Assembly (NCBI GenBank): GCA_017405805.1
Contig: JAFQZU010000011.1
Coordinates: forward strand, 1 to 62,108
From: Lachnospiraceae bacterium
GTDB taxonomy: Bacteria; Bacillota; Clostridia; Lachnospirales; Lachnospiraceae
DNA: 62,108 bases
Direction: 5' to 3'
Below the pieces are notes generated by a model that saw only the letters and a program-made list of their open reading frames with translations, was not told where the DNA came from and ran no database searches. Position numbers and translations under genes: made by a program. Below are positions 8,849-11,687 of the stretch, piece by piece (within the stretch, counting starts at the first letter, position 1; every line of letters begins with the position of its first letter).

Positions 8849-8877
8849 TTGTAATTGAAACCTTCAACCGCTAAAAT
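8849..8877 (+). promoter_or_regulatory. SigA-type promoter for the PRPP synthetase gene
   Basis: TTGTAA (8849-8854), 17-bp spacer, TAAAAT (8872-8877), about 55 bases upstream of the ATG at 8933. No PurR box was recognised here. Confidence 0.6.
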
Positions 8878-8932
8878 AAGTTCATACACTTGGTACATCT
8901 ATTGTCTATGGCCACTGCAAGGAGAATTACGT

Positions 8933-10168
8933 ATGCCATCCAATCTTGATATTCAGCAGCACCTTGAGAACGAAAGTATCCCCGTAGCGCCGCTGGGACT
9001 GATCGTCCTCCCCTCCGCAAAGGATCTGGGCGAGAAGATCAACCAGCGCCTGGTCCGTCTTCGCAGCAACAGCCGCCACAAAAATTCGGACACACCTGAG
9101 TACATGGACTATTATAAGGAAGATTACCGCATGGATTTTTCCATCCCCCGCTTTTTTAACGGGGAGGGACGCGCCCAGCTCAATGAGTCCGCCCGCGGCC
9201 GCGATATCTACATTCTCACGGATATCACCAATCACTCCCTTACCTACGAGATGAACGGGTTTACCAACCACATGTCTCCGGACGACCACTTCCAGGACCT
9301 CAAGAGAGTGATCGCCGCCATTAACGGACGCGCTCACAGGATCACCGTGATCATGCCCTTCCTCTACGAGGGACGCCAGCACGGACGCTCCGGCCGCGAG
9401 TCGCTGGACGCCGCGCAGATGCTGAAGGAGCTCACCGATCTGGGAATCGACAACTTCATCACTTTTGACGCGCACGATCCCCGGATCCAGAATGTATCCC
9501 CTCTCCTTGAGTTCGACAACTTTACGACGCCCTATCAGTTCCTGCGCTCTCTCCGCCACTCCGTCGACGATCTGATCGTGGACAAGGACCACATCGTGGT
9601 CATCAGTCCCGACGAGGGCGCGCTGGACCGCACCGTCTATTTTGCCAACGTCATCGGCGCAGACACCGGCATGTTCTACAAGAGAAGGGATTACTCCCGG
9701 ATCGAGGGCGGCAAGAACCCTATCGTGGCGCACGAGTTCCTGGGCACGGACCTCAACGGCAAGGACGCCATCATCATCGACGACATGATCTCCTCCGGCG
9801 GCAGTATCCTGGACACCTCCAGGCAGCTGAAGCAGAATATGCACGCTAAGCGCGTGTTCCTGTGCACCACCTTCGGCCTCTTTACCGACGGCCTCGAGCC
9901 CTTCGACGAAGCTTATGAAAAGGGCTATTTTGACATGATGGTGACCACCAACCTGACCTACCAGCCCCCGGAGCTGATGGACAAGCCCTATTTCGCCCTG
10001 GCTGACATGAGCCAGTACACCGCCATGATCATTGACTTCATGAATCATGACGCGCCGCTCTCCCACATCGTCACGCCTACGGACAAGTTCCACGAGGTGC
10101 TCGAGAAGTTCAACCGGAACGAGACCACCGAAATGGAGGACCGGACCCTGGAAGAGACTGAGATCTGA
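8933..10168 (+). CDS. prs: Ribose-phosphate pyrophosphokinase (PRPP synthetase), long clostridial form
   Basis: Makes phosphoribosyl pyrophosphate from ribose 5-phosphate and ATP for nucleotide, His and Trp synthesis. 411 aa starting MPSNLDIQQ; AAGGAG lies 8 bases upstream. The C-terminal half holds the PRPP-binding loop IIIDDMISSGGSILDTS; the N-terminal half has FLYEGRQHGRSGRESLDAAQ and ITFDAHDPRIQN, equivalents of the ATP/ribose-phosphate elements. It is some 90 residues longer and quite divergent from canonical PrsA, as in many Clostridia, so activity is inferred from motifs. Monocistronic, divergent from der, and followed by a terminator. Confidence 0.88.
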   Translation: MPSNLDIQQHLENESIPVAPLGLIVLPSAKDLGEKINQRLVRLRSNSRHKNSDTPEYMDYYKEDYRMDFSIPRFFNGEGRAQLNESARGRDIYILTDITNHSLTYEMNGFTNHMSPDDHFQDLKRVIAAINGRAHRITVIMPFLYEGRQHGRSGRESLDAAQMLKELTDLGIDNFITFDAHDPRIQNVSPLLEFDNFTTPYQFLRSLRHSVDDLIVDKDHIVVISPDEGALDRTVYFANVIGADTGMFYKRRDYSRIEGGKNPIVAHEFLGTDLNGKDAIIIDDMISSGGSILDTSRQLKQNMHAKRVFLCTTFGLFTDGLEPFDEAYEKGYFDMMVTTNLTYQPPELMDKPYFALADMSQYTAMIIDFMNHDAPLSHIVTPTDKFHEVLEKFNRNETTEMEDRTLEETEI

Positions 10169-10186: not shown

Positions 10187-10235
10187 GGGGCTGTCGCACT
10201 AAGAAATGGTTCTTAGGGCGGCAGTTCTTTTTATT
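10187..10235 (+). terminator. Rho-independent terminator of prs
   Basis: GGGGCTGTCGCACTAAGAA pairs, with one bulge, with TTCTTAGGGCGGCAGTTC and is followed by TTTTTATT. The stem start GGGGCTGTCGCA recurs in the terminators near 11290 and at 34562. Confidence 0.8.
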
Positions 10236-10267
10236 ACTGGAAAGGGAAGGATAGGCCTTATTAAAAA

Positions 10268-10500
10268 GGGAAGGATAGGCCCGGGGAGAGAAATTGAATT
10301 CGCGGAGTTTTACTCAGATCTTTCCGTCGTTCGAGAGAGGGACCGCTCCGAACTCGGCGTCCGCTCTGATGACCGGACGCCTCAGACATTTCGGGCTCTC
10401 GGGCGGCAGGAGCTGCCGCCCTCGCCCTCTCTCTCACTCCCGAAAGATCCGGTAAAACTTGCCGCTCATTCAAATAATTCTCCCCGGGCCTATCCTTCCC
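10268..10500 (-). ncRNA. Structured palindromic element, copy A (candidate RNA)
   Basis: A 22-bp perfect inverted repeat (10268-10289 with 10479-10500) encloses a 180-nt core (10294-10473) read best on the minus strand. The core starts TTGAATGAGC and ends GAATTCAA. It folds as nested stems: CGG.AGTTTTAC with GTAAAACT.CCG, GATCTTTC with GAAAGATC, and GAGAGAGGG with CCCTCTCTC, enclosing two hairpins, GGGCGGCAG/CTGCCGCCC and GGCGTCC/GGACGCC with a 10-base loop GTCATCAGAG. Copy B shares the core and loop but changes many stem pairs compensatorily. No plausible protein is encoded. The transcribed strand and function are unknown. Confidence 0.6.
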
Positions 10501-11024
10501 TATGTAAAAGTCCGAGCTGCCACGTGTAACCACATTTCTCAGTGCTTCAATCAAGAACACATTATAGTTTTTTATACGCGCTGCGACATGGGATCGAGGT
10601 TTATACCTACGCAATAGGCTTGATTATAGTTATCGTCGGTCAGTTTTCTTAAAAATCCACATCCTGAACGAAGTCAATGAGGCATGGGATCGGCCAATAT
10701 ACCTACGATTAGAGCCAATACCTAGATTATCATCGGTACACCAAAGCTAATATAACATCCCACTTCTGCCCCACATTTCAAATTACGTTGTAAGCAGACG
10801 AAGAAGAGCCGACGCACTCATATCTTCTAACCATAATCATCAGTATAAACTGAAATCCCATATTAAATTGAATGTATCACATGGACCTTATAATACGATA
10901 CTGTACCGACGCAAATGAACTAAAAAGAGAAATGCGTCGGTATAAATGGCTGTACCATCAAAATGAGAATAGAATACTGATTTGAAAAAAGCTGCAGATA
11001 CGGCGGCAGGGATCTGCCTTAGCG
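10501..11024. other. Gene-free AT-rich spacer with diverged direct repeats and a hairpin
   Basis: No credible coding frame on either strand. Two diverged copies of a roughly 60-bp motif begin CATGGGATCG at 10587 and 10683 (96-bp spacing), each followed by TATACCTACG and ending in TATCGTCGGT or TATCATCGGT. A perfect 10-bp inverted repeat TACCGACGCA/TGCGTCGGTA spans 10904-10942. The base composition is much more AT-rich than its neighbours. It separates the divergent structured elements A and B and could hold their promoters or be the decayed centre of a mobile element. Confidence 0.5.
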
Positions 11025-11260
11025 AGTGCGTCATGCCCCTTTTATACTGCTTTTGAATGAGCAGATGTTGAACCGGATCCTTCCCGAGCGAAGGAGGGAA
11101 TGAGGGCTGCAGCTCCTGCAGCCCGAAAGCCCATTTGTTTGAGCCGTCCGGTCATCAGAGCGGACGGCAAGTTTGGAAAAGCGGTTCCCTCCGCAGCGAG
11201 AGGAAGGATCCGAGTGAAACACTGTGAATTCAATGCAGTTTAAAAGGGGCATGTCGCACT
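11025..11260 (+). ncRNA. Structured palindromic element, copy B (candidate RNA)
   Basis: Outer arms AGTGCG-CATGCCCCTTTTA and AAAAGGGGCATG-CGCACT enclose a 181-nt core (11053-11233) homologous to the minus strand of copy A: same TTGAATGAGC start, GAATTCAA end, and the loop GTCATCAGAG between CGTCCG and CGGACG. Stems differ in sequence but keep pairing: GGATCCTTCC with GGAAGGATCC, GGAGGGAA with TTCCCTCC, GGGCTGCAG with CTGCAGCCC, GCCGTCC with GGACGGC. This covariation argues for selection on RNA or cruciform structure. Transcribed rightwards it would end at the hairpin and T run at 11246-11300. Confidence 0.6.
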
Positions 11261-11300
11261 CACGTAAGATGATCCCTTTCCGCCTAGTACGACAGCCCCT
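11246..11300. terminator. Bidirectional hairpin terminator at the end of yraN / element B
   Basis: GGGGC-TGTCG near 11246-11256 pairs with CGACA-GCCCC at 11283-11293, followed by TTTTTT on the plus strand and by CCCCTTTTAAA on the minus strand. It can serve both element B (rightward) and yraN (leftward). Confidence 0.55.
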
Positions 11301-11303
11301 TTT

Positions 11304-11687
11304 TTACCATACTCTGCTGTTTCTTCCGCTGAAGGTGAAGGGAAACGCGTCCTTGATCCAGCGAATGCCTTCCTTCCGCATACTGATCACGTCAAAACGC
11401 ACCGCCTGATCCGTCCCAAGCCCCTTCTCGTACAGATAGCGCAGCGCGCACCCGCAGATCCGTTTCTGCTTGGCCGGCGTGACGGCGCTCTCGGGCGACC
11501 CGCTTACGCCGCTGCGCCGGTACTTGACCTCAAAGAAAATGATCGTGCCGTCCTTTTCCCCGATCAGGTCCACTTCCGCGCGTCGGCTGCGGTAATTCTG
11601 CTCCCGGATGCGCACCCCCTGCGCCTCGAGGTACAGCCTTGCTGCCTGCTCCGTCTCACTCCCCGTTATCCTTTTGTTATACTGCGT
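11304..11687 (-). CDS. yraN: YraN/UPF0102 family nuclease-like protein, apparent ACG start
   Basis: Small nuclease-fold protein, often found beside rnhB; its cellular role is poorly defined. Homology to the family start (QYNKRITGSETEQAARLYLEAQG) extends upstream of the only canonical start, a GTG at 11615, which would cut off the first conserved helix. The full-length 127-aa frame begins at an ACG exactly 7 bases after a perfect AAGGAGG; an in-frame TGA (the rnhB stop) lies just above. The restriction-endonuclease-like core NYRSRRAEVDLIGEKDG...FFEVKYRR is intact. Either ACG initiates, or an ATG has been lost by one transition or a sequencing error. Confidence 0.8.
   Translation of the reverse strand, partial: TQYNKRITGSETEQAARLYLEAQGVRIREQNYRSRRAEVDLIGEKDGTIIFFEVKYRRSGVSGSPESAVTPAKQKRICGCALRYLYEKGLGTDQAVRFDVISMRKEGIRWIKDAFPFTFSGRNSRVW

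Follow-up and report, generated by a model that had tools for sequence, protein, structure and literature searches.

Two non-coding stretches beside prs in an uncultured gut bacterium of the Lachnospiraceae are members of a scattered structured repeat. The repeat has a covarying fold with a favoured strand, is dispersed through one genome and its genus, is polymorphic in presence at the sites of two of its pairs, and occurs inside an intact IS1182-family insertion sequence. A branched fold of about 200 nt that is kept while its stems are rewritten, in one genome and across a genus, looks as if it is recognised by its shape. We hold with moderate confidence that this is a non-autonomous mobile repeat whose folded strand is under selection, most likely as the substrate of a recombinase, and we place this reading ahead of a functional RNA, a structured end of IS1182-family insertion sequences and a process without selection.

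The window, which is the whole stretch of DNA that was analysed, comprises 62,108 nt of contig JAFQZU010000011.1 (GCA_017405805.1), and its genome is referred to here as G000. The names prs and yraN are those we take the two flanking genes to have, going by their sequences. The features of the unit and its surroundings are:

8855..10168, plus strand: flanking gene prs, convergent towards the unit (open reading frame)
10187..11299, no strand: whole unit with both structured elements and outer inverted ends GGGGCTGTCGCACTA / TAGTACGACAGCCCC (inverted repeat I13; same end in IS1182-family left ends of related genomes)
10187..10203, plus strand: left outer terminal inverted repeat (GGGGCTGTCGCACTAAG), also within the hairpin downstream of prs (inverted-repeat search)
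10261..10507, minus strand: copy 1 with its basal stem, type 1 arms (GGCCCGGGG; arms I4; fold; model match 10282-10485, 212.7 bits)
10294..10473, minus strand: conserved core of copy 1, with bounds from the preliminary description (sequence and alignment)
10508..11007, no strand: spacer between the copies, without a long open reading frame of its own (GC 0.40; whole window 0.57)
11008..11277, plus strand: copy 2 with its basal stem, type 2 arms (CATGCCCC; arms I3; fold; model match 11041-11245, 196.8 bits)
11053..11233, plus strand: conserved core of copy 2 (sequence and alignment)
11283..11299, minus strand: right outer terminal inverted repeat (GGGGCTGTCGTACTAGG on the minus strand; inverted-repeat search)
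11304..11615, minus strand: flanking gene yraN, convergent towards the unit (open reading frame)

The unit of 1113 bp is without a transposase, is bounded on the left by GGGGCTGTCGCACTA at 10187 and on the right by the complementary sequence, which ends at 11299, and sits between the prs stop (plus strand) and the yraN stop (minus strand). The prs orthologues in two related genomes (G003 and G013) adjoin a short intergene without the element, and no target duplication was seen by eye at the flanks of the window unit. A preliminary description of this DNA had reported two divergent copies with cores at 10294-10473 (minus, 180 nt) and 11053-11233 (plus, 181 nt); we confirmed both cores, which align over their full length with a mean column identity of 77% (end-to-end alignment; repeats I1, I2 and I5). 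The hairpin loop that it quoted, GTCATCAGAG, is common to both copies, and the four paired stem differences that it listed are present in the sequence (its text speaks of five stems). When each fragment was folded alone, copy 1 gave a z score of −12.9 and copy 2 a z score of −14.3, with none of 200 dinucleotide shuffles equalling either. Outer arms also pair (10261-10289 with 10479-10507 in copy 1; 11008-11053 with 11232-11277 in copy 2) and prolong the hairpin, which means that the elements extend beyond the cores first described. The count of two copies was likewise too low, as a covariance model search found 16 in the window's genome. Three open reading frames of 73 to 117 codons overlap the window copies in the ORF list; we take these to be chance readings. 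Two direct repeats lie within the unit as well, one of 24 nt in tandem (10234-10281, 88%) in which a portion of copy 1's outer arm is duplicated, and one of 30 nt (10582-10707, 77%) in the A+T-rich spacer.

The conserved structure is about 205 nt long, plus arms, around a core of about 180 nt. At the base, a long stem with interruptions and with conserved tandem G.A pairs leads to a junction, which bears one plain hairpin and one longer arm, and in the longer arm a near-invariant internal loop (TGTNTGA / GAGTT) lies beneath an apical hairpin. Of 90 near-complete copies, 77 have the TGTNTGA ... GAGTT loop, and 89 have it when a relaxed form is allowed. Tandem G.A opposite G.A occurs in the basal stem of 28 of 37 aligned copies, and a second site in that stem is GA/GA in 14 of the 37 and TT/AA in 14. 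Across the 37 aligned copies, 89.2% of cells are paired, 53 of 61 pairs have double-sided changes (shuffled mean 30.8, sd 2.5) and 367 cells are double changes (shuffled mean 127.2, sd 10.1), a comparison with shuffles that is inflated by related sequences according to the tool's own warning. Sliding the structure by 1 to 3 columns gave at most 35 such pairs and 151 such cells, and the changes are spread over subfamilies with little common sequence, which argues that the covariation signal is real. The preliminary description had named a lack of homologues beyond the pair and a lack of covariation in a larger alignment as findings that would speak against it; neither occurred, and with 95 copies found the larger data set supports both the selection for structure that it had proposed from two copies and the description of the element as an undescribed structured one, RNA or DNA hairpin.

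To define the extent of the family, we searched 61 relatives. Copies were found by blastn in 12 of them and, with a covariance model built from the 37 copies, in 20, all 20 from the same genus. Genus-wide, 30 of 62 genomes carry at least one copy (E ≤ 1e-4), with 1 to 37 copies per carrier and the highest numbers listed in G062 (37), G065 (24) and G001 (17). Among other genomes of the order, 2 of 391 gave a match (70 and 37 bits) in a less sensitive search that scored 6 candidates per genome (6 of the 16 copies in G000 were listed), so that rarity, not absence, is shown; both matches outside the genus retain the loop motif and the architecture. A motif scan of named genomes returned 54 stretches, of which 50 are titled Lachnospiraceae, 1 Clostridia and 3 Burkholderiales; the last are likely chance matches (21.9 and 21.5 bits with the model, and no match for the third). 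The named carriers are Lachnospiraceae MAGs, a ruminant is named in 10 of 51 titles, and wherever a title gives a source it is a ruminant. The family had not been recognised from sequence, and Rfam likewise gave no match at gathering and relaxed thresholds (best score below threshold 19.2 bits against a cut-off of 38). No match was found in phage or plasmid records by distant blastn with copy 1 only, or in viral contigs by an exact-motif scan, and among the papers listed in literature searches, no title or abstract opening described this element. A diverged single copy in a one-contig genome of another genus (L402 1490-1720, G330) lies just upstream of a gene whose start, we presume, resembles DUF4317; one copy in G000 (L136) comes after a DUF4317 gene, a parallel that may be chance.

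Pairs of copies are arranged minus then plus, with their 5' ends facing, and empty orthologous sites were seen for two pairs and for none of the single copies. A 742-nt pair in G003 is missing in three of the four other genomes searched: at the site, a terminator-like hairpin lies within 45 nt in G013 (flank identities 99% and 93%) and in G033, a similar hairpin lies within 103 nt in G024, and the search in G025 gave no right flank. A second pair, in G013, is missing in G033, where the empty site is 105 nt with a terminator-like hairpin. No target duplication was seen. The replaced hairpin at the G003 site fits insertion into a hairpin with deletion, and could also reflect later loss. Where similar copies occupy different loci, their likeness ends a few tens of bases past the arms, and a pair common to G027 and G011 (94.6% over 723 nt) shows likeness that does not reach the flanks. 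A 3.1-kb filler of an orthologous site (G003 C17), considered as a candidate autonomous version, holds other genes, judging from its open reading frames.

Some copies appear to be nested in hairpins of their surroundings. We fetched 21 of the 24 copies in G065 and used 20 for a nesting test. The inner arm is conserved in these copies, and farther out the bases vary among copies but remain complementary inside any one copy. At positions 12-19 beyond the ends of the model, pairing occurs in 12 to 18 of the 20 copies, against means of 5.5-9.6 in a control with exchanged arms and rechosen register, and 7 of the 8 positions beat all 300 shuffles. The simplest reading of these outer stems is insertion into hairpins already present. 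By eye, several G065 copies lie between the halves of other palindromes, of the GGGGACGGTTC and GGGGACGCATCC types. In G000, arm complementarity ends about 13 positions outside the model, so that the evidence for nesting comes from G065 and from individual cases, L297 among them. Palindromic repeats of the same two types flank several copies among L133-L143 (G001) and L408-L426 (G065), some of them on both sides, as though the element lay within these repeats.

To compare the two strands, we used 95 copies, which remained from 114 model matches after removal of 15 on the opposite strand, 3 cut or weak partial matches and 1 with a large insert; their strand is that of the model, set by likeness to the window copies and not by energy. 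In an arm alignment that is neutral to wobble pairs, G.A mismatches outnumber C.T by 518 to 97 and are the more frequent in 91 of 95 copies, and the favoured strand has the lower folding energy in 90 of 95 copies with RNA parameters and in 91 of 95 with DNA parameters. Together, the mismatch bias and the energies suggest that a single strand of one polarity is what is selected.

The same bias would be expected of an RNA, which tempers the mobile-repeat reading. That the element is a functional RNA, with the favoured strand transcribed and structured, at message 3' ends or free, and copied around the genome, is the strongest of the alternatives, although we consider it a good deal less probable. 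Beyond the strand-specific structure, it would account for the near-invariant internal loop next to tandem G.A, a feature of protein-binding RNA motifs, and for the excess of G-U over A-C on the favoured strand in the consensus folds of four sets (70:22, 35:6, 24:5 and 25:8). The antisense folds of these sets gave 21:37, 4:9, 15:11 and 29:14, however, and the two sets in which G-U also leads on the antisense do not discriminate. G-U pairs are also rare, at about 2-7% of pairs, and in the neutral arm alignment G-U (174; ahead in 48 copies) and A-C (111; ahead in 24) are close to other mismatches such as T.T (125) and C.T. Calibration of this measure on RNase P was uninformative, since 22 of 30 sequences gave a poor consensus fold, which scored below its antisense. 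Promoter and terminator patterns in the window unit did not exceed shuffled expectation, which for promoter-like sites also counts against an RNA.

Genomic context bears on the same question. Copies are intergenic or overlap doubtful frames only, by rough ORF calls. For 35 copies (14 in G000 besides the window pair, and 21 in G065) we assigned flanking genes with Pfam; both flanks were assigned for 17, which lie in 9 convergent, 8 tandem and no divergent gaps, and the other 18 had at least one side unresolved or not tried (the gene 3' of L410 fell below the Pfam cut-off). At first, a sense bias, which would favour an RNA, seemed to be present in G000, since among the 10 single copies resolved there, 9 had on their 5' side a gene running in the same direction. 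This impression dissolved, because most gaps resolved on both sides are convergent and hold no orientation information, and the tandem gaps contain 5 antisense and 3 sense elements. The pattern is that of repeats at gene 3' ends and does not support a set function in any one message. Apart from element translations, shared orthologous loci and one candidate cluster of 9 loci, no protein neighbour was seen to recur. A role of the copies as terminators was set aside since T-runs are rare: in 5 of 76 copies, 5 or more of the 8 nt that follow the stem are T.

We next consider the link to the IS1182 family. The end of the window unit, GGGGCTGTCGCACTAAG, resembles GGGGCTGTCGCATTAAG, the terminal repeat in the left ends of L315 and G003 C48. 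L315 (RGIG8306) has this end repeat, the element, a 542-aa frame without a stop and a plain hairpin as its right end; its protein scores 360.9 bits against the NCBIfam IS1182 model (cut-off 270), and it is an intact IS1182-family insertion sequence whose left end hosts a copy of the element. Type 2 copies with a shared 5' flank lie between GGGGCTGTCGCATTAAG and the start of the transposase frame in L064, L069, L079 and L162 (the core being partly deleted in L162). The same 5' flank is found in L086, where the contig ends before the transposase frame, and the left part of L285 is as in L315, without the outer repeat and the frame end. One possibility is therefore that the element is simply a structured left end, found in an IS1182-family insertion sequence and in deletion derivatives of it (MITEs), with single copies as relics, and the IS1182-like ends of the window pair agree with this. 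So does a report on IS1272, a member of this family, which is described as inserting into hairpins, terminators being several of these, with a blunt deletion and without duplicating the target (Furi et al. 2016, PMC4923244); this matches the replaced hairpin at the G003 site.

We nevertheless regard this origin as unlikely. In G041, which belongs to another family, a left end that looks similar by eye has the end hairpin and the transposase start and lacks the element, and the right ends of L315, G003 C48 and G017 C5 are plain hairpins. By eye, an IS1182-like outer end is absent from the 14 other G000 copies and the 21 G065 copies seen, yet every fold inspected (13 of those 14 G000 copies and 3 in G065) is intact; relics should decay, so the intact folds speak against them. 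The 205-nt covarying body is not mentioned in the portion of the IS1272/TnSha1 report used here (PMC4923244). Finally, G000 has 16 copies and gave no match to the IS1182 transposase (NF033551) or to the Y1 transposase (PF01797, present in 35 of 61 genomes), an absence that for a genome about 84% complete is not proven. The missing transposase matches and outer ends, the restriction of empty sites to two pairs, the lack of a visible target duplication and the early end of complementarity in G000 weigh against the mobile-repeat reading too. The preliminary description had held that a clear match to a MITE family would speak against a new element; the layout of the window pair is indeed that of a transposase-less IS1182-related unit, and no described MITE or Rfam family was found to match the body.

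Two other partners were considered and rejected. A Y1/RAYT transposase as the general partner has no match in the window's genome, and no Y1 gene was found between element ends in the manner of IS200/IS605. The C-terminal part of a Y1 (IS200-like) transposase does lie beside one copy only (L064 3573-3780), apparently inserted after the IS1182 transposase start. An IS66 frame near a copy-like end proved to lie inside an IS1182-family transposase frame (L280, G003:C48, about 600-2600), at a locus where the structured hairpin is gone and the stem base is left. At another locus (L278, G003:C81, 1501-1556), a pair of IS1182-like end repeats has fused into a single palindrome (GGGGCTGTCGCATTAAGCG...), which is the end in a minimal form.

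An origin without selection, in which the arms of a quasi-palindrome are copied onto each other in replication (template switching), would explain why most changes are double-sided Watson-Crick with few G-U intermediates, but it is highly improbable, as arm copying would erase mismatches and here the tandem G.A pairs are kept at one place and the internal loop is kept, as are two separate side hairpins in their order and a strand bias.

Returning to the mobile repeat with a selected folded strand, we propose that these are small non-autonomous mobile elements of about 205 nt of conserved structure plus arms, which as single strands of one polarity fold into a fixed architecture. Copies lie in intergenic regions at gene 3' ends, and some are inside host hairpins, whose stems then extend the stem of the element; the hosts include terminator-like stems, other palindromic repeats and, in an IS1182-family insertion sequence, the hairpin of the left end. 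Single copies may have entered existing hairpins in this way, and in the window two copies make up both ends of the transposase-less unit with IS1182-like ends. The folded single strand may be recognised by a transposase or other recombinase acting in trans, and this would be why the structure is kept. More speculatively, and with clearly less confidence, we suggest a class of mobile hairpins in which a strand-specific fold of about 200 nt inserts into host hairpins via its folded strand (DNA or RNA), independently of the IS1182 element on which it sometimes rides, with an enzyme that reads TGTNTGA/GAGTT.

Several known systems share parts of this picture. Group IIC introns and integron attC sites involve insertion next to or in stem-loops and a strand-specific folded single strand, as proposed here; unlike a group IIC intron, the element has no Rfam match to an intron. 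Hairpin-recognised mobility is known from the small REP, IS608 and attC hairpins, and if the folded strand is a transposition substrate, such mobility would extend to a large RNA-like architecture. ERIC sequences are small, intergenic, foldable and dispersed, like this element. Classic MITEs decay without compensatory changes; in contrast, sequence turnover here is compensatory and the internal loop is fixed. RUP, BOX and other bacterial MITEs, in the parts of the reports used here, are likewise small, intergenic, foldable and dispersed (PMC2229807, PMC3049150). REPINs and REPs with RAYT (Y1), to the same extent, are alike in being intergenic palindromic repeats with a strand-specific hairpin, inverted pairs and no autonomy, and differ in size, as REPs are 20-40 bp and the core here is about 180 nt and branched (PMC3116915, PMC3733652). 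If the element is instead an RNA, some gut Lachnospiraceae would possess a structured RNA that is absent from the catalogues, in as many as 37 copies per genome. In both cases the alignment supplies a model for others to use in finding and testing the element.

Some individual loci were also recorded. Two copies in G065 lie between genes with MnmE and GidA domains (L413) and between genes with SMC and SRP54 domains (L414), which are presumably mnmE/mnmG and smc/ftsY. A type 2 copy in a Reindeer MAG (L297, reverse strand 2610-2814) comes after a relative of a PHP-domain gene, namely the one that in G000 precedes a copy of another subfamily (L129). The genes on the far side differ, and this locus is either a hot spot or a fast-diverging orthologue.
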